This document shows, one piece after another, positions 32,559 to 42,747 of a stretch of 64,000 nucleotides of DNA. A model generated the notes under the pieces. That model was not told where the DNA came from. It did no database searches and was given only the letters and a program-made list of their open reading frames with translations. This DNA is from Mucilaginibacter sp. CSA2-8R (GTDB lineage Bacteria; Bacteroidota; Bacteroidia; Sphingobacteriales; Sphingobacteriaceae), in contig NZ_CP152389.1 in the NCBI RefSeq assembly GCF_038806765.1, forward strand, positions 1,302,001 through 1,366,000, written 5' to 3'. Position 1 is the first letter of the stretch; each line of letters begins with the position of its first letter. Position numbers and translations under genes: made by a program.

Positions 32559-32649
32559 CTAACGTACCATTGTAACCCATTGCCATTATAGCATACTATC
32601 CTGATTATACTTTTCGCCCGGATGATGTTTATAAGTCGCCATTACCTAT

Positions 32650-33813
32650 ATGTCTGAACAAATTATACTTAAGGGAATAACCTGGAACCATAGCCGGGGC
32701 TTTGTACCTATGACGGCCACTGCCCAGCGCTTTTCAGAATTAAATCCGAACGTTGAAATCGTGTGGGAAAAGCGTTCCCTGCAACAGTTTGCCGATCTTT
32801 CTATCGAACAGCTTGCGCAGCGTTATGACTTGCTGGTAATAGATCATCCCTGGGCTGGCTTTGCCGCCAACACCCGTACCATACTGCCGTTCGATGAATT
32901 TTTGCTTGCCGAATTTTTGAAAGATCAGGAAGTGAACACGGTGGGCGAATCATACACCAGCTACAACTTTCATGGTCAGCAATGGGCGTTACCTATTGAC
33001 GCCGCCACGCCGGTAGCCTCCAGTCGTCCTGATTTATTAACCGCACACGGCACAGACAAACCATCAACCTATGATGAATTGATAGAACTCGCTCAACGCG
33101 GATTAGTGGCCTGCCCGCTGATTTCTATCGATTCATTGATGACCTTTTACACCTTTTGCTGCTCCTTGGGCGAAGACCCTTTTCAGAATGACAGCGAAGT
33201 TGTGAGCCGCGAAACAGGCGTACAAGCACTACAAATGTACCGCAACCTGGCCAAACTGGTTGATCAGGCTTGCTTTGGCTACAACCCCATAAAGGTATAC
33301 GAGCGCATGACGCTTACTGATGATATTGCCTATTGTCCGTTTGCCTATGGATATTCTAACTATTCGCGTCAGGGCTACGCCCGTAGAGTGCTTCATTTTC
33401 ATGATATGATAACGCTGGATGGTAAAACCAACCTTCGTTCAACTTTGGGCGGCACAGGTTTGGCTGTTTCATCAAAAGGCCAGCATATTGATGTGGCGAT
33501 GAAGTACGCTGAATACGTAGCTTCACCAGCCTGCCAGCAAGGCTTATATACTGACAATGGCGGCCAGCCGGGGCATTTAAGTGCCTGGACCAATAAGCAC
33601 ACGAACAGTTACACAGCAAATTATTTCAGTAATACCCTGCCCGCTTTGCAACGCGCCTTCTTACGTCCGCGCTACAACGGTTCTATGTATTTTCAGGACC
33701 ATGGCGGCGACATTGTACGTAATTACCTCATGAATGGTGGCAGCGAGGCCAAGGTGTTGAATCAACTGGATAGATTATACCAGCAATCGAAAGGACAAGC
33801 GCAACATGGTTAA
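32650..33813 (+). CDS. Family 1-type solute-binding protein homologue lacking a signal peptide
   Basis: A 387-residue periplasmic-binding-protein fold. The first beta strand (ILKGITWNHSRGF) starts right after the ATG, leaving no room for a signal peptide or lipobox. Family features include FSELNPNVEIVWEKRSLQQF, LVIDHPWAGF, WALPIDAATPV and the late GGTGLAVSSKG with VAMKYAEYVASP. In ABC importers such proteins deliver sugars to a permease, but no permease or ATPase lies in the operon, so a cytoplasmic role (carrier, sensor or enzyme subunit) must be considered. Its stop overlaps the next start by eight bases. Confidence 0.8.
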   Translation: MSEQIILKGITWNHSRGFVPMTATAQRFSELNPNVEIVWEKRSLQQFADLSIEQLAQRYDLLVIDHPWAGFAANTRTILPFDEFLLAEFLKDQEVNTVGESYTSYNFHGQQWALPIDAATPVASSRPDLLTAHGTDKPSTYDELIELAQRGLVACPLISIDSLMTFYTFCCSLGEDPFQNDSEVVSRETGVQALQMYRNLAKLVDQACFGYNPIKVYERMTLTDDIAYCPFAYGYSNYSRQGYARRVLHFHDMITLDGKTNLRSTLGGTGLAVSSKGQHIDVAMKYAEYVASPACQQGLYTDNGGQPGHLSAWTNKHTNSYTANYFSNTLPALQRAFLRPRYNGSMYFQDHGGDIVRNYLMNGGSEAKVLNQLDRLYQQSKGQAQHG

Positions 33814-34960
33814 GCCTTTAGATGGATTGGTGGTGCTGGAGTTCAGCCAGTTTATGGCCGGGCCGACAGCAGGTTTACGCCTGGCCGATTTGGGTGCGCG
33901 TGTCATCAAAATTGAACGCCCCGTTAAGGGTGAGGCTGGCCGGCAGATTGCCATACGCAATATCTTTGTAGATGGCTCGAGCCTGGTCTTTCATACCATC
34001 AATCGGAATAAAGAATCGTACGCGGCCGATTTAAAAGACCCGGAAGATTTAGAGCGTGTAAAAAAGCTGATAGCGCAGGCCGATGTGATGACACATAACT
34101 TTCGGCCCGGCGTAATGGAAAAAATTGGTCTGGATTACCAGACTGTACAAACAATAAATCCGCGTATTATATACGGTGTAGTTACCGGTTACGGTAGCGA
34201 AGGCCCGTGGGCCATACGCCCTGGTCAGGATTTGTTAATCCAGTCGCTATCGGGTTTAACTTATTTGACCGATACGCATGATGCCGGTCCGGTGCCGTTT
34301 GGCCTGGCGGTGGCCGATATTATGTGTGGAGCCCACTTTGTGCAAGGTGTTTTGGCGGCGCTCATCAAAAGAAATAAAACTAAAAAAAGTGTGCTGGTTG
34401 AAGTAAGCCTTCTCGAATCAGTGCTTGACCTGCAATTTGAAGTAATAACCACGCACCTTAACGATGGCCGCAAACTGCCGCAACGCAGTAAAAACAAAGG
34501 TGCAGGCCATGCTTACCTGAGTGCCCCATACGGTATTTATCGTACTGCCGATGCCTATCTGGCCTTAGCCATGGGCAATCTGCACAAAATTGGCGAGGCG
34601 CTGGATGTTGACTTGAGCGATTACTCCAGTCGCGAATCGTGGTTTGAGCAACGCGATGAAATTATGGATAAACTGGCTTTAAGGCTCGAAACGAAAACCA
34701 CCGCCGAGTGGCTGGCTATCCTCGAACCTTTGGACATCTGGTGTTCTGAAATATTGACGTATGCTCAAAGCTTACATCATGAAGCTTTTGAAGCGATGGG
34801 AGTGAAGCAAAACGTGGTATTGCCCGATGGGCAGGAACTGAGTACCACCCGCTGCCCGATACGCATTGACCACAACCGGTTATATTCGCCTGTAGCCGCA
34901 CCGCAGCCCGGTCAGCAAACCGAAATTATTAATCAGCAATTTAACTTAACCGGTGCATGA
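33806..34960 (+). CDS. CaiB/BaiF family III CoA-transferase, paralogue 1
   Basis: A 384-residue family III CoA-transferase. It has [32 protein letters not shown] at the N-terminus, [32 protein letters not shown], and the catalytic aspartate Asp171 in [11 protein letters not shown], aligned with Asp169 of formyl-CoA transferase. It moves CoA between carboxylic acids through an aspartyl-CoA thioester; the acid here is unknown. It overlaps both neighbours (8 and 4 bases), implying translational coupling with the binding protein before it and the second transferase after it. Confidence 0.93.
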
Positions 34961-36096
34961 AGCCTTTAGAAGATTATTTGGTGGTTGATTTCAGCCAGTT
35001 TTTATCAGGGCCGTCTGCCGGTTTGCGCTTGGCTGATTTGGGTGCGCGTGTCATCAAAATTGAGCGGCCTGAAACAGGTGATATCTGCCGGCATTTGTAC
35101 ACTTCAAACGTCATCATGAATGGCGAGTCGTCGGTGTTTCATGCCATAAACCGGAATAAAGAAAGCTTTACGGTTGATTTAAAAAATGAGACCGACAAAC
35201 AGCACGTTTGGGAGCTGATAAAAAAGGCCGATGTGGTGATGCATAATTACCGCCCAGGAGTGATGGAGCGGTTGGGCTTTGATTATGAGACAATCAAAAA
35301 CGTAAACCCCGAGGTAATTTACGGAGAAATATCCGGTTACGGTGATGTTGGTCCCTGGAAGGATAAACCCGGCCAGGACCTGCTATTGCAGTCGCTTACA
35401 GGCCTAACCTGGTTAAGCGGTAACAACGGCGGCCCGGTGCCGATGGGCTTATCCATTATTGACATGCTGGCCGGTACACATCTGGCGCAGGGTATACTGG
35501 CCTGCCTGGTGCGGCGCAGTATTAAAAATGAAGGGGCACTGGTACAGGTAAGTATGATCGAGTCGGCTTATGATTTGCAGTTCGAGGCCGTAACCACCTA
35601 CTACTACGATGGCTTGCTGCCGCAGCGTACCGAAAAAAATAATGCACATGCATACTTGGGGGCACCTTACGGTATTTACAAAACGGCCAACGGCTACATG
35701 GCCTTGGCTATGGGGTCTATTCCGCAGCTGGCACAACTGTTAAAATGCAACGCACTGTTGCCGTACACCGAAGTAGCGCAGGCTTTCCATCAGCGCGACG
35801 AAATTAAGGCTATCCTGGCCGACCATCTGCAATTGGATACTACCGAAAGCTGGCTATCAGTGTTGCAGCCTGCCGACATTTGGTGTGCCGAAGTAATGAA
35901 CTGGGATATCCTGATGCAGCAGGAAGGCTTTAAAGCCCTGAACATGATACAGGAGGTGCAAATGCAAGACGGCTACCAGTATCAAACCACCCGTTGCCCG
36001 ATACGTATTGATGGTGAGTTGCTTACCTCGAGTAAAGGGTCGCCGGCGCTGGGGCAGGATACTGATAAAATATTGCTGGAAATTAAAACTGAGTAG
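34957..36096 (+). CDS. CaiB/BaiF family III CoA-transferase, paralogue 2
   Basis: A 379-residue paralogue of the preceding transferase, very similar throughout ([47 protein letters not shown]), with its own aspartate Asp169 in [11 protein letters not shown]. The ATGA overlap with paralogue 1 suggests stoichiometric production, as in heteromeric family III enzymes such as BbsEF, so a heteromer is plausible though unproven. The next gene starts one base after this stop codon. Confidence 0.93.
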
Positions 36097-36097
36097 T

Positions 36098-37336
36098 ATG
36101 AGCAGTGCCGACACCATCAGGATAGCCGTGAGGAAGTTTGGTCCGTTTGAGAGCACCCTGCAAAAGCTTTGGGATGCCTTTTGTGCAGAAACAGGCTGCA
36201 CGCTCAAGGCCGAAATGGTGCCGATGGACCTGGAGTTGCTCTACGATACCATCATCAAAAATAAAGGTCTGCAAAACGGCGACTGGGATATTGCCCATGT
36301 AGTTACCGACTGGCTTTACGAAGCCTGGAACAGCGGCTTGCTCGAAAATTTGCAGCCGTATATTCAAAAAGATGCGCCTGAAGAATATCCTACCGCTTGG
36401 AGTAATTCATTATTGTCGGCCCAGCACTACCCTAACGGCGTGGCCGGGCTACCGTTTCACGACGGCCCCGAATGTTTAATTTACCGGAAAGATTTGTTTG
36501 ATGATGTTGCCGAGCAAAAGGCCTATCAACAGCAATATGCCAAACCTTTGCAGGTACCGCAAACCTGGGAAGATTTTAAGACCATAGCCCGTTTTTTTAA
36601 CCGGCCGGAGCAAGGTCTATACGGTACAGTGCTCGCCGGCTATCCGGATGGGCACAATACGGTTTTTGATTTTGTGTTGCAACTTTGGACTCGTGGCGGA
36701 GAACTGACTGATGCAGACGGAGAAGTTGATATAAATACCCGGCAAGCGGCTGAAGGGCTGCAATACTATCGCCAGCTATTTTCAGACACCAGTGCTGTGC
36801 ATCCCGAATCGGCAGATTACGAATCGGTAGCCATGGGGATGGCCTTTGCCCGAGGCGAGGCGGCCATGATGGTCAACTGGTTTGGCTTTGCTTCCATGTG
36901 CGAGGTGATTGCCGAATCGACGGTAAAAGGTAAAGTGGATATTGCCAGGTTGCCTTGTCAGCCAGGTTCAGCTTCGGCATCGCTTAACGTGTACTGGTTG
37001 TACACCATAGGAGCAGGCAGTTGCCACAAACAGGTAGCTTTTGATTTTTTGCGCTTTGCTACTAACCGCAGCAGCGATAAATTGCTGACGTTGGAAGGTG
37101 GTATTGGCTGCCGTAAATCTACCTGGACAGATAGCGAAGTAAATACCATTATTCCTTATTACCATAAACTACAGGATTTACACGAGGTTGCTAAATCGCT
37201 GCCGCAAAAAAGTAACTGGGCGCAAATTGCCCATATTATAGACGAAGTAGTGCTGGCCGCCATCAATACTGATATCCCTGCAGAGCAATTGTTAACACAA
37301 GGCCAGCAAAAAATTAATGAACTGATAGTTCGCTAA
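36098..37336 (+). CDS. Second solute-binding protein homologue lacking a signal peptide
   Basis: Start set at the Met at 36098, one base after the previous stop; the upstream open frame overlaps the transferase gene. The 412-residue product begins MSSADTIRIAVRKFGPFES with no hydrophobic leader. It has MalE-type family traits: WDIAHVVTDWLYEAWNSGLLENLQPYI, GVAGLPFHDGPECLIYRKDLFDD, VPQTWEDFKTIARFF and FARGEAAMMVNWFG. It differs clearly from the first binding protein, so the operon has two distinct cytoplasmic binding-protein homologues flanking the transferase pair. Role unknown. Confidence 0.8.
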   Translation: MSSADTIRIAVRKFGPFESTLQKLWDAFCAETGCTLKAEMVPMDLELLYDTIIKNKGLQNGDWDIAHVVTDWLYEAWNSGLLENLQPYIQKDAPEEYPTAWSNSLLSAQHYPNGVAGLPFHDGPECLIYRKDLFDDVAEQKAYQQQYAKPLQVPQTWEDFKTIARFFNRPEQGLYGTVLAGYPDGHNTVFDFVLQLWTRGGELTDADGEVDINTRQAAEGLQYYRQLFSDTSAVHPESADYESVAMGMAFARGEAAMMVNWFGFASMCEVIAESTVKGKVDIARLPCQPGSASASLNVYWLYTIGAGSCHKQVAFDFLRFATNRSSDKLLTLEGGIGCRKSTWTDSEVNTIIPYYHKLQDLHEVAKSLPQKSNWAQIAHIIDEVVLAAINTDIPAEQLLTQGQQKINELIVR

Positions 37337-37344
37337 TACAACAT

Positions 37345-38427
37345 ATGCAAATTTCTTATCAACCCATAATGCCTCAAAATCCGCAACCTATCGTTATTAT
37401 AGGTGCCGGCGGTATTGTGAGCGACGCCCATTTGCCGGCCTATAAAAAGGCTGGGTTTAACGTAGTTGGCATTACCAACCGTACCCGCGCCCGTGCAGAA
37501 AAACTGGCTGCCGAATGGGGCATACCAAATGCATACGATACCGTTGCCGACGCCGTAGCCAACGCACCCGCTAATGCGGTATACGATATCACCATTATGC
37601 CCGAAAAGTTTGTAGAAACTTTAGAGCAACTGCCCGACGGCTGTGGAGTACTCATCCAGAAACCGATGGGCGATTACTTTTGGCAAAGCAAAGAGATACT
37701 GGAGGTTTGCCGCCGTAAAAAATTAGCGGCAGCTATTAATTGCCAGCTGCGCTTTGCACCCTACGTAAGTGCCGCACGCGACATGATTGCGCAGGGCCTG
37801 ATAGGGCAGTTGTACGATATGGAAGTACGTGTGACTTTAACCACGCCTTGGGAGCTGTTTCCGTTTGTGATGGTGCACCCACGGCTGGAAATTCAATACC
37901 ACAGTATTCATTATATAGACTTAATGCGCTCGTTTTTAGGCGACCCGAAATCCGTAATGGCCAAAACGCTTAAACATCCGGCTAAGGAGCTGTCGTCTTC
38001 GAGGTCGACCATATTGTTTGATTATGGTGATACTATGCATGCCGTTATTAACACCAATCACGACCATGCCTTTGGTCCGCATAACCAGGAAAGCTTTATT
38101 AAGTGGGAGGGGACTAAGGGAGCGATTAAAGCGCGGATGGGCTTGCTGATGGATTACCCGCACGGTGTGCCCGATAAGTTTGAGTATTGCCTGCTGGAAG
38201 AAGGTAAAGCGCCTGAGTGGAAAGAAATAACACTGCAAGGTTCATGGTTTCCGGATGCTTTTATTGGTACCATGTCGAGCCTGATGCGCTACAAGGGCGG
38301 CGAAACGGATGTATTGCCTACCCACGTAGAAGATGTTATTAAAACTATGGCCGTGGTAGAAAGTGCCTATCAAAGCAGCGATAACGGTGGCGTGCTGATT
38401 GCTGATAAACTGAACGATTTACAGTAG
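37345..38427 (+). CDS. Gfo/Idh/MocA family NAD(P)-dependent oxidoreductase
   Basis: A 360-residue dehydrogenase: N-terminal Rossmann fold ([40 protein letters not shown]), the IQKPMGDY segment corresponding to the family EKP motif, and a C-terminal alpha/beta domain with [26 protein letters not shown] and [18 protein letters not shown]. Such enzymes oxidise or reduce sugars and cyclitols. The second Met (37369) is an alternative start. It is eight bases after the second binding-protein gene and is presumably the oxidation step of the pathway. Confidence 0.92.
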
Positions 38428-38473
38428 AATAAGGCATAAAGCAGACTTTTATAAATCAGAAAACGATATATTC

Positions 38474-38509
38474 GAAGCTCGAAGCAGATATGAAGCTCGA
38501 AGCAGATAT
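38474..38509. repeat. Perfect 18-bp tandem duplication before the MaoC gene
   Basis: GAAGCTCGAAGCAGATAT occurs twice in direct succession and ends three bases before the ATG at 38513. Each unit also contains an imperfect internal GAAGC repeat. Copy number could vary by slippage and alter translation initiation. Confidence 0.9.
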
Positions 38510-38512
38510 TAT

Positions 38513-38959
38513 ATGTATTTCAAATCCACTTTTTTTGAAGATTACAACATTGGCGACAAACGAGTAACTTTAGGGCGAACTATTACCGAAACCGACTTTG
38601 TAGTACATGCCGGCCACACCGGCGATTTTTTTCCGCACCATATGGATGCTGAATGGTGCGCCACGCAGCCGTTTAAACAACGCATTGCGCATGGTACCAT
38701 GATTTTTAGTATTGGCATTGGGTTAACTGCTTCAGAAATTAACCCCGAAGCCATGTCTAAAGGATATGATAAACTGCGTTTTGTAAAGCCGGTTTTTATC
38801 AACGATACTATTCGCTCCGAAGTAACCATCTCCGAAAAAGCGGATAGCAAAAAGCCAGCGTATGGCACCGTGACCGAACACGTAGAAGTCATCAATCAAA
38901 AAGGAGAAGTAGTACTGGTATGCGACCACTTGCTGGTTGTTAAAAAAACAACTGTTTAA
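38513..38959 (+). CDS. MaoC-family hot-dog-fold dehydratase
   Basis: A 148-residue single hot-dog domain with the (R)-enoyl-CoA hydratase signature: [27 protein letters not shown] (Asp38 and His43 in the catalytic positions), [15 protein letters not shown] and [25 protein letters not shown]. It should hydrate or dehydrate a CoA thioester, which fits the two CoA-transferases upstream. It is preceded by an 86-base gap with a tandem repeat and followed by the transporter after three bases. Confidence 0.92.
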
Positions 38960-38962
38960 CAT

Positions 38963-40267
38963 ATGGCTAACATTAGCACTGGCGCCGAAAGCGCTGTAAT
39001 TAACGAATCAGACTTAAAAGGGAAAAACCTGATGGTGCCCTTCGCGCTTATCTGCTCCCTGTTTTTTTTGTGGGGAATGGTGCATAACACCGATGGTATC
39101 CTCATTCCGCATCTTAAAAAAGCTTGTCAGTTAAGTAACGCACAGTCCACCCTGGTAGACACCGCCGTATATGCAGCATACTTTTTAATGGCTATACCTG
39201 CAGGTATACTGCTCAGAAAGCTGGGTTATAAAAAAAGCATCTTGGTGGGGCTTTGTTTAGCTGCTATTGGTGCAGCGTTATTTATACCGGCTGCAAATGC
39301 ACTTGCTTATACCGGATTTTTAGGCGCTTTGTTTATTATAGGCTGTGGCATTGCTATATTAGAAACAGCTGCCAATCCTTACGCAGCTGTACTTGGCGAC
39401 CCGGCCAAAGCTACTACCCGTTTAAATTTGGCGGCAGCTTTTAACGGTGTAGCAGCCATGGTAGGCCCGTTAGTAGGTACGCTATTTATTCTTTCGGGTA
39501 AAAGCCTTACGCAAGCCCAACTTGATGCAATGCCATCTGCCGAACGCACTGCTTATCTGTTGCATGAAGCATCATCAGTAAAAGTGCCTTACGGCATACT
39601 TGCTGGTGTACTGGTTTTGGTAGCTATATTGTTTGGGTTAACCAAGCTGCCCGAAATTAAAAATGTAACCAAAGAAGAAACCGCGGGCGGTAGCTTTTTG
39701 GGTACTTTAAGGCATAAGCATTTAGCCTGGGGCGTTATTACTCAATTTTTTTACGTAGGAGCACAAACATGTGTAATTAGCTTTTTTATCAGGATGGCCA
39801 TTCAGGGTGGAGGCTTTGATGAAAAAACCGCAGGTTTTTGGCTGGCGGTATACGGCGCATTTTTTGTAGGCGGCCGCTTTATTGGTACGTTCATCTTACA
39901 GTATATAAAAGCTCCCAAACTGCTTGCTATTTATGCTATTTCGGCTGCTGCGCTATGCGGTCTTGCTATTTTAATTCAGGGTGTATTTGTAGTCTATTGT
40001 CTGTGTGGTATAGGCTTCTTCATGTCTATTATGTTCCCAACCATATTTAGTTTAGGTATTGATGGCTTAGGTGAAGATACTGCACCCGCCTCGTCATTCA
40101 TGATTATGTCGATAGTAGGCGGTGCCATACTGCCTTATATTATGGGTATGGTGATTGATTTTAGTCATGACAAGATACAGCCTGGCTATATCATACCGCT
40201 GCTTTGTTTTCTTGTAATTGTGTATTTCGGCTTAAGTGGTCACAAAATCAAAAAACATTTAGTGTAA
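38963..40267 (+). CDS. FucP-family sugar:proton symporter (MFS)
   Basis: A 434-residue protein with about 12 membrane helices of the L-fucose permease subgroup: LICSLFFLWGMVHNTDGILIPHLKKACQLSNAQSTLVD, LGYKKSILVGLCLAAIGAALF, ILETAANPYAAVLGDP and ARRLNLAAAFNGVAAMVGPLVG-like ATTRLNLAAAFNG. These import monosaccharides by proton symport in Bacteroidota. As the last gene of the operon it probably brings in the pathway substrate; L-fucose, L-rhamnose or a related sugar is a guess. Confidence 0.92.
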   Translation: MANISTGAESAVINESDLKGKNLMVPFALICSLFFLWGMVHNTDGILIPHLKKACQLSNAQSTLVDTAVYAAYFLMAIPAGILLRKLGYKKSILVGLCLAAIGAALFIPAANALAYTGFLGALFIIGCGIAILETAANPYAAVLGDPAKATTRLNLAAAFNGVAAMVGPLVGTLFILSGKSLTQAQLDAMPSAERTAYLLHEASSVKVPYGILAGVLVLVAILFGLTKLPEIKNVTKEETAGGSFLGTLRHKHLAWGVITQFFYVGAQTCVISFFIRMAIQGGGFDEKTAGFWLAVYGAFFVGGRFIGTFILQYIKAPKLLAIYAISAAALCGLAILIQGVFVVYCLCGIGFFMSIMFPTIFSLGIDGLGEDTAPASSFMIMSIVGGAILPYIMGMVIDFSHDKIQPGYIIPLLCFLVIVYFGLSGHKIKKHLV

Positions 40268-41914: not shown

Positions 41915-42081
41915 CAATTTCAGTTGTATTTAAAAAACCTGATTAGACTTTTTATATAAATACCGCAATCATGTACGTCCATTCGTGCCAAAGTATACCG
42001 GGATAATTAGCTGATAAAAAATTATCCGTCAATAAACGCCTATTGGTAAACGGCCCATTAGGCAAGGCTATGTTTTTTGTC

Positions 42082-42089
42082 TATTTTTG
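42082..42089 (+). promoter_or_regulatory. -7 box (TATTTTTG) four bases before the LolD-like start codon
   Basis: TATTTTTG matches TAnnTTTG and ends at 42089, with the ATG at 42094. Transcription would begin at or next to the start codon, giving a leaderless mRNA. No -33 TTG is found at the usual distance. Confidence 0.4.
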
Positions 42090-42093
42090 CTAC

Positions 42094-42747
42094 ATGCTGA
42101 AAGCACTCGGTATTCAGAAATACTATAATAAGCTCCATATTTTAAAAGGGGTTGACCTGGAAGTAAAACAGGGTGAAATTGTAACTATTGTTGGAGCATC
42201 CGGTGCGGGCAAAAGCTCGCTGCTTAACATCATTGGTACTTTAGATAAACCTGATGGCGGGCAGCTGTTTATGGATGAAGTTGAAATAAGCAAGCTGAGC
42301 AGCAAACAACTTAGCCATTTCCGCAATACGCAGATAGGTTTTATTTTCCAGTTTCATCACTTGCTGGCCGAGTTTGATGCTATTGAGAATGTATGTATCC
42401 CTGCTTTTATTGCCGGTACTGCTAAAGCCGACGCGCAAAAGCGTGCAGCCGAATTGCTGGATATGCTTGGTTTAAGTAGCCGCATGCATCACAAACCCAA
42501 CCAGCTATCGGGCGGCGAGCAACAGCGTGTGGCCGTAGCAAGGGCTTTAATTAACAAACCGGCCTTGGTGTTAGCTGATGAACCATCAGGTAACCTGGAC
42601 TCGGCAAATGCCCGTGATTTGCATGAATTGTTTATCAACCTGCGCAATAACTTTAATCAAACGTTTGTAATTGTTACGCACAACGAAGACCTGGCCGATT
42701 TATCAGACCGTAAGGTGGTGATGAAAGACGGGCTGATTGTGAATTAA
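42094..42747 (+). CDS. LolD-like ABC transporter ATP-binding protein
   Basis: Start set at the Met at 42094 ([20 protein letters not shown]); the upstream extension [17 protein letters not shown] contains the promoter box. The 217-residue ATPase has Walker A GASGAGKS (34-41), Q-loop FIFQFHHLL, signature [15 protein letters not shown], Walker [14 protein letters not shown] and the VTHN switch. It belongs to the MacB/LolD/FtsE group, probably energising lipoprotein release or a MacB-type permease encoded elsewhere. The next gene follows after four bases. Confidence 0.9.

Follow-up and report, generated by a model that had tools for sequence, protein, structure and literature searches.

We analysed a 64,000-nucleotide window of the Mucilaginibacter sp. 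CSA2-8R genome (contig NZ_CP152389.1, positions 1,302,001 to 1,366,000), which carries on its plus strand, from 32650 to 40267, a gene cluster in the order SBP1-CoAT1-CoAT2-SBP2-Gfo/Idh oxidoreductase-MaoC hydratase-FucP symporter. SBP1 and SBP2 are relatives of the solute-binding proteins that serve ATP-binding cassette (ABC) importers as sugar receptors, and CoAT1 and CoAT2 are family III coenzyme A (CoA)-transferases. Both receptor-type proteins appear to act inside the cell, SBP1 apparently alongside the transferases, and conservation of the arrangement extends well outside this Mucilaginibacter genome. The genes of the cluster are:

32650..33813, plus strand: SBP1, sugar-receptor-fold protein, predicted to be cytoplasmic, 387 amino acids (aa) (Pfam SBP_bac_1; structure model and fold match; no upstream start)
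33806..34960, plus strand: CoAT1, family III CoA-transferase, 384 aa (PF02515 at 2.1e-93; Asp171 conserved)
34957..36096, plus strand: CoAT2, family III CoA-transferase, 379 aa (PF02515 at 3e-95; conserved Asp in the same column)
36098..37336, plus strand: SBP2, the other receptor-type protein, also lacking an export signal, 412 aa (SBP_bac_1 at 9.4e-22; 1eu8 at 2.2e-27 by profile; own clade)
37345..38427, plus strand: Gfo/Idh/MocA oxidoreductase, 360 aa (PF01408 at 2.9e-10)
38513..38959, plus strand: MaoC-type hydratase, 148 aa (PF01575 at 2e-22)
38963..40267, plus strand: FucP-type symporter of the major facilitator superfamily (MFS), 434 aa (TIGR00885, 366.6 bits; cut-off 280.4)

The SBP1 gene runs 8 bp into CoAT1 and CoAT1 runs 4 bp into CoAT2, with 1 bp between CoAT2 and SBP2; translational coupling across SBP1-CoAT1-CoAT2-SBP2 is plausible. 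An earlier note, made from the DNA alone, had drawn attention to the two receptor-type open reading frames (ORFs), and both are indeed present and related to SBP_bac_1. The symmetrical flanking of the transferase pair that it described holds in the window, but several relatives have no SBP2.

Receptor fold and absence of export signals

Against Pfam SBP_bac_1, whose gathering cut-off is 26 bits, SBP1 scores 48.1 bits (2.1e-12) and SBP2 78.8 bits. Structurally, the AlphaFold model of SBP1 (pLDDT 88.9) superposes on the mature ABC receptor 6jaq with Z 36.2 and a root-mean-square deviation of 3.2 over 372 residues, and Foldseek matched it over its whole length to ABC sugar receptors (6dtq at 6.8e-22); all rows shown in two fold searches (50 in each) were ABC receptors. 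Residue 4 of SBP1 aligns with residue 3 of mature 6jaq and strand 1 of the model spans residues 5-12, which bears out for SBP1 the earlier note's view that the first strand of the fold directly follows the start codon. The predicted model of SBP2 is poor (pLDDT 54), and its kinship with the receptors comes from the profile match to 1eu8. The SBP1 frame is closed by a stop at 32632, five codons ahead of the ATG, and offers no alternative start, and the only earlier starts for SBP2 (36008, 36011 and 36014) all lie within the CoAT2 gene and gain no hydrophobic stretch. An upstream in-frame start with a signal peptide, which the earlier note had named as a finding that would speak against its proposal, was looked for in both genes and none was seen.

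Signal peptides were assessed across both families by hydropathy (the highest 12-residue mean within the first 45 residues) and by visual inspection rather than a trained predictor. Peak values ranged from 0.0 to 1.20 for SBP1 (n = 23) and from 0.07 to 1.12 for SBP2 (n = 8), and from 1.57 to 2.57 for ABC receptors (n = 11), so that the ranges of the receptors and of the two families are disjoint. Four of the ABC-receptor controls share loci with SBP1 (L044, L045, L047 and L050, where the gene labelled SBP2 in the locus comparison is an ABC receptor and not an SBP2 ortholog), and the seven others adjoin sugar permeases. The starts of the L010 SBP2, the L042 SBP1 and L047 were taken from listed or annotated ones; the L041 SBP2 was read from a start lying 5' of its annotation, as was the L045 ABC receptor, whose signal is visible only from there. 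The 12 Verrucomicrobiota SBP1 proteins begin at the family start, and three have in-frame upstream extensions (17, 27 and 51 residues) with no hydrophobic core by eye. Sphingomonad and haloarchaeal relatives of SBP2 likewise have no signal peptide by reading, and the ABC receptor adjoining each of them starts with a hydrophobic stretch. By these criteria neither family shows a signal, and a missed signal peptide was rejected from the inspection of upstream starts together with the comparison of relatives and ABC controls.

The source genome is a single contig of 5.34 Mb, 99.92% complete, which allowed a possible ABC partner to be sought genome-wide. It contains three SBP_bac_1 matches, namely SBP1, SBP2 and ModA, and four BPD_transp_1 permeases, whose best NCBIfam matches are ModB, two Opp-type and one glycine-betaine-type; among the ABC matches only the molybdate pair (ModA, ModB) lies above the NCBIfam cut-off. 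None of the four permeases is sugar-type by its best match, and a CUT1-type partner elsewhere in the complete genome was rejected on this basis (CUT2-type and TRAP systems were not searched for genome-wide). The earlier note had reported no permease or ATPase nearby; this extends to CUT1 permeases throughout the genome, but the cluster itself ends in the FucP MFS permease. Moreover, an ABC ATPase-like ORF, LolD-like in its translation as read by eye, lies at 42043-42747, 4.7 kb past SBP2, with an opposite-strand ORF standing between it and the cluster.

Because both families lack export signals, signal-bearing ABC receptors occur in the same loci and the genome has no CUT1 permease, the recruitment of the receptor fold to the cytoplasm that the earlier note suggested is strongly supported, and a cytoplasmic, non-transport use of SBP1 and SBP2 is, from these comparisons, almost certain. 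The data favor an enzyme partner or an enzyme over a sensor.

Conservation of the putative ligand cleft

In an alignment of 34 SBP1 sequences (the window protein and 33 of 43 extracted relatives), 29 columns are invariant, including the polar residues H14, R16, D65, D117 and R339. Several of them lie just past strands 1 to 3 of the model and others in an RP motif (339-340) that aligns with the RP of 1eu8 in the profile alignment, in which the Trp of the 1eu8 LGGW motif corresponds to Thr269. We presume, from this alignment and from known ligand residues, that these conserved residues line the cleft, which would then be conserved for a changed, perhaps acidic, ligand.

Co-occurrence of SBP1 with one CoA-transferase subfamily

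Among 296 Bacteroidota genomes, CoAT2 as a query (E ≤ 1e-40) matched 40, of which 16 had two matches each at ≤ 9.5e-114, and the best match of the other 24 was 1.1e-51; the 16 genomes with this subfamily are exactly the 16 that encode SBP1 (the window's own counted). The same holds in a sample of 240 genomes from the phylum of a Methylacidiphilum-named metagenome-assembled genome (Verrucomicrobiota by label), where the CoAT of locus L015 (E ≤ 1e-60) matched 13 genomes, exactly the 13 with SBP1; common descent exaggerates the counts in both samples, each of which contains its own seed genome. In one genome (G286, locus L063), SBP1 sits in an L-rhamnose operon about 60 kb from CoAT1, CoAT2, SBP2, Gfo and MaoC, all of which are kept. 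This operon encodes a bifunctional RhaD scoring over its cut-off and RhaI- and RhaB-like proteins below theirs, and between SBP1 and the rhamnose genes (L063, 6798-8204) there is a 468-aa protein with no Pfam or NCBIfam match that looks like a membrane transporter by eye.

We compared 55 SBP1 loci, comprising 15 from genome_contigs, 12 plasmid regions, a second set of 15, 12 from Verrucomicrobiota and L068. A CoAT gene is present in 53/55, directly adjacent on the same strand in 43/55, and a MaoC or crotonase hydratase occurs in 51/55, Gfo/Idh in 33/55 and an IclR-type regulator in 17/55 (IclR was sought by tblastn with three representatives and may be undercounted). Gene orders in Bacteroidota include that of the window and SBP1-CoAT-CoAT with crotonase and aldehyde dehydrogenase, the rhizobial order is MaoC-CoAT-SBP1, and six of the 12 Verrucomicrobiota loci read SDR-CoAT-crotonase-SBP1. 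Taken together, these gene neighborhoods and distributions make a functional tie of SBP1 to the CoA-transferase very probable. As to the earlier note's choice of carrier, sensor or enzyme subunit for both proteins, the exact co-occurrence in two samples thus supports a functional link for SBP1, but the two proteins are not counterparts of each other, and SBP1 is the only one found with the transferase throughout.

CoAT1 and CoAT2 share the CoA_transf_3 domain and the conserved Asp with formyl-CoA, succinate-hydroxymethylglutarate and succinyl-CoA:mesaconate transferases, and they are the only CoA_transf_3 genes in the window's genome. Among the CoA-TRANSFERASES CoAT1, CoAT2 and their relatives, the Asp at CoAT1 position 171, which we take to be the catalytic Asp of family III, is kept in 92/92 sequences. 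The pair differs from the known family III transferases in reaching no NCBIfam equivalog cut-off, in its tandem copies and in its receptor-type partner gene. Two Verrucomicrobiota genomes (L091, 5927-8233, and L092, 5874-8171) join CoAT1-like and CoAT2-like domains in a single ORF, 768 aa long in L091 and 765 aa in L092, and these fusions suggest that CoAT1 and CoAT2 form a heterodimer; some other relatives have a single CoAT copy instead of the pair.

Distribution and separate origins of SBP1 and SBP2

Relatives of SBP1 were found at 15 loci in genome_contigs with 46-95% identity (Mucilaginibacter, Flavobacterium, Saccharicrinis, Galbibacter, the Methylacidiphilum-named genome and others), which are not independent since 10/15 are Mucilaginibacter or near it, and in 145 of 72,556 plasmid records (Sinorhizobium, Azospirillum, Streptomyces, Rufibacter and others), with 30.5-59.4% identity among the matches listed (60 of 145); 12 of the 145 records were inspected at the level of the region. 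The SBP1 lineage thus spans, judged by sequence similarity, Bacteroidota, Verrucomicrobiota, rhizobia and Streptomyces, and its proteins start, like that of the window, with the first strand of the fold. SBP2 is narrower, occurring in 10/296 Bacteroidota genomes, all within the 16 with SBP1, and outside this phylum in a sphingomonad (46.8%) and a haloarchaeon (37.5%), after which identity drops to ABC receptors at 28%. The haloarchaeal stretch also encodes a CoA transferase, MaoC, an AMP-binding protein, Gfo/Idh, L-rhamnose mutarotase, an amidohydrolase and an alpha-L-fucosidase. Its AMP-binding gene, of acyl-CoA ligase type, lies immediately 5' of the SBP2 relative (L069, 7326-8954) and could be a second route to a CoA thioester.

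Evolutionarily, SBP1 and SBP2 fall on opposite sides of a branch with support 100/100, with SBP2 grouping with ABC receptors, in a tree of 23 SBP1, 8 SBP2 and 11 ABC sequences that were chosen by hand. An origin as one duplicated pair is unsupported, given the two tree clades and a profile comparison of 43.5% probability (E 0.00024). The two proteins are separate lineages, in which the signal peptide was probably lost twice; two losses are no firmer than probable because the tree has long branches and a midpoint root.

Proposed pathway and alternative explanations

Neighboring genes point to 6-deoxyhexoses of the fucose or rhamnose type as the substrate. FucP in the window scores over its cut-off, RhaT, L-rhamnose mutarotase or alpha-L-fucosidase occurs in relatives, and relatives also encode a fuconolactonase-like amidohydrolase and a 2,4-didehydro-3-deoxy-L-rhamnonate-hydrolase-like protein, both below cut-offs. 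We propose that SBP1 and SBP2, derived from ABC-importer sugar receptors in two separate lineages, would stay in the cytoplasm, where sugar brought in by the FucP-type symporter would be turned into a sugar acid by dehydrogenases (plus lactonases in relatives). CoAT1 and CoAT2, probably as a heterodimer, would then make the CoA thioester of this acid, on which the MaoC hydratase (elsewhere a crotonase) would work, and the acid or acyl-CoA would be held in the cleft of SBP1. In this scheme we infer the cytoplasmic location, the physical contact between SBP1 and CoAT, the ligand, the order of steps and the role of SBP2. Broadly, we consider it reasonably likely that a receptor fold has become an obligate cytoplasmic component, either substrate-binding subunit or catalyst, of an L-fucose/L-rhamnose-type CoA-thioester pathway in several phyla under the annotation of an ABC receptor, and that a second receptor lineage joined the operon independently in Bacteroidota. 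The narrower proposal, that SBP1 binds substrate in the cytoplasm as the partner of a CoA-transferase whose acids derive from 6-deoxyhexoses, we advance tentatively as the leading reading, with a confidence that falls somewhat short of even.

Several observations weigh against these proposals. Besides the inflation of the co-occurrence counts, 24/296 Bacteroidota genomes lack SBP1 but carry a more distant CoA-transferase, and therefore other members of the family need no such partner. The stretches read at L047 and L063 contain no CoAT, although the L047 plasmid has one CoA-transferase elsewhere, and none of eight loci checked for an SBP1-CoAT fusion has one; G524 and G454 show long open frames, but these were rejected as fusions, the ORFs from the start codon being 383 and 374 aa. 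Of the proteins compared at three loci from rhizobia, SBP1 shows the lowest conservation (61-66% identity, versus 71-78% for CoAT and 78-83% for the adjoining locus's ABC receptor). Finally, 6-deoxyhexose markers are found at 36/55 SBP1 loci but at only 2/12 Verrucomicrobiota loci, so the substrate may differ in that phylum.

Instead of binding to the transferase, SBP1 could work next to it as an enzyme built on the receptor fold, carrying out its own step (isomerization, dehydration or C-C cleavage) on the acid or acyl-CoA, a reading that we regard as doubtful but worth serious consideration. The invariant polar residues and the replacement of the LGGW Trp by Thr are in keeping with it, obligate co-occurrence suits a subunit and an enzyme for the following pathway step equally well, and SBP1 stands apart from CoAT in G286 and behind a crotonase in six loci; it also has precedents, since porphobilinogen deaminase, THI5 and MqnA use the two-lobed binding fold in the cytoplasm. 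However, no catalytic motif was recognized in SBP1, the fold-search rows shown were ABC receptors throughout, and SBP1 and SBP2, unlike these precedents, belong by sequence to SBP_bac_1. It is unlikely that SBP1 and SBP2 hold free pathway intermediates in the cytoplasm, acting as carriers or buffers with no dedicated partner: the fold and its conserved columns are retained, and two distinct binders per operon would fit two intermediates, but the tracking of one CoA-transferase subfamily by SBP1 would be left unexplained.

If SBP1 sensed a ligand in the cytoplasm and so regulated the operon, for instance through nearby IclR-type regulators, this would suit the loci where IclR is present, often divergent beside SBP1, and L063, where SBP1 adjoins IclR and no CoAT is present. 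Yet IclR was not found in 38/55 loci, among them those closest to the window, far more than lack CoAT, and SBP1 has no DNA-binding or signaling domain in Pfam, so that we rejected IclR sensing as a general role and judge the sensor improbable. The reading of SBP1 and SBP2 as normal, exported ABC receptors, their start having been missed or their route of export being unusual, agrees with their family and fold, but is highly improbable given that SBP1 has no upstream start, that relatives lack the signals of the ABC controls, that the genome has no CUT1 permease and that the operon consists of cytoplasmic enzyme families.

Relation to known systems

Compared with the SBP_bac_1 sugar receptors of ABC importers (trehalose/maltose-binding 1eu8, alpha-glycoside-binding 6j9w, sulfoquinovosyl-binding 7ofy and maltose-binding 6dtq), SBP1 shares the whole-length fold, the Pfam family and the two-lobed cleft, whereas SBP1 and SBP2 differ in having no export or lipoprotein signal and no sugar ABC permease and in standing in an operon of CoA enzymes. 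Like those of two-subunit family III transferases such as benzylsuccinate CoA-transferase (9fn0, chains A and B), the two CoAT genes are paralogous neighbors, and they are naturally fused in relatives; unlike in that enzyme, both CoAT copies retain the Asp and a receptor-type gene accompanies them. To our knowledge, no cytoplasmic enzyme or enzyme partner from SBP_bac_1 has been described. The open-licence literature yielded no description of a cytoplasmic solute-binding protein with a CoA-transferase, and the passages available from PMC9007349 mention no such protein.

In the annotated plasmid records inspected, SBP1 relatives are named extracellular or ABC substrate-binding proteins, an annotation that hides a family following one CoA-transferase subfamily across phyla. 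If our proposal is true, import receptors have been converted into enzyme partners, and polysaccharide-degrading and plant-associated bacteria would possess an uncharacterized CoA-dependent deoxysugar route; the small set of soluble proteins involved offers a way to test this.

Genomic setting and additional observations

The closest relatives of the source genome that we found are Mucilaginibacter. Upstream of the cluster lies a polysaccharide-utilization run of a hybrid two-component regulator, TonB-dependent receptor, SusD, GH88, GH43, DUF2264, GH2 and GH35. A RuBisCO-like protein is encoded at L002 (17601-20897), and also at L003, L005 and L093; at L002 it stands behind FucP together with PF07005/PF17042 kinase-type and Asp/Glu racemase-type proteins, a set that presumably resembles apiose/isoapionate gene sets. 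Within the window, a short tandem repeat with a unit of about GAAGCTCGAAGCAGATAT occupies 38470-38512, between the Gfo/Idh and MaoC genes.

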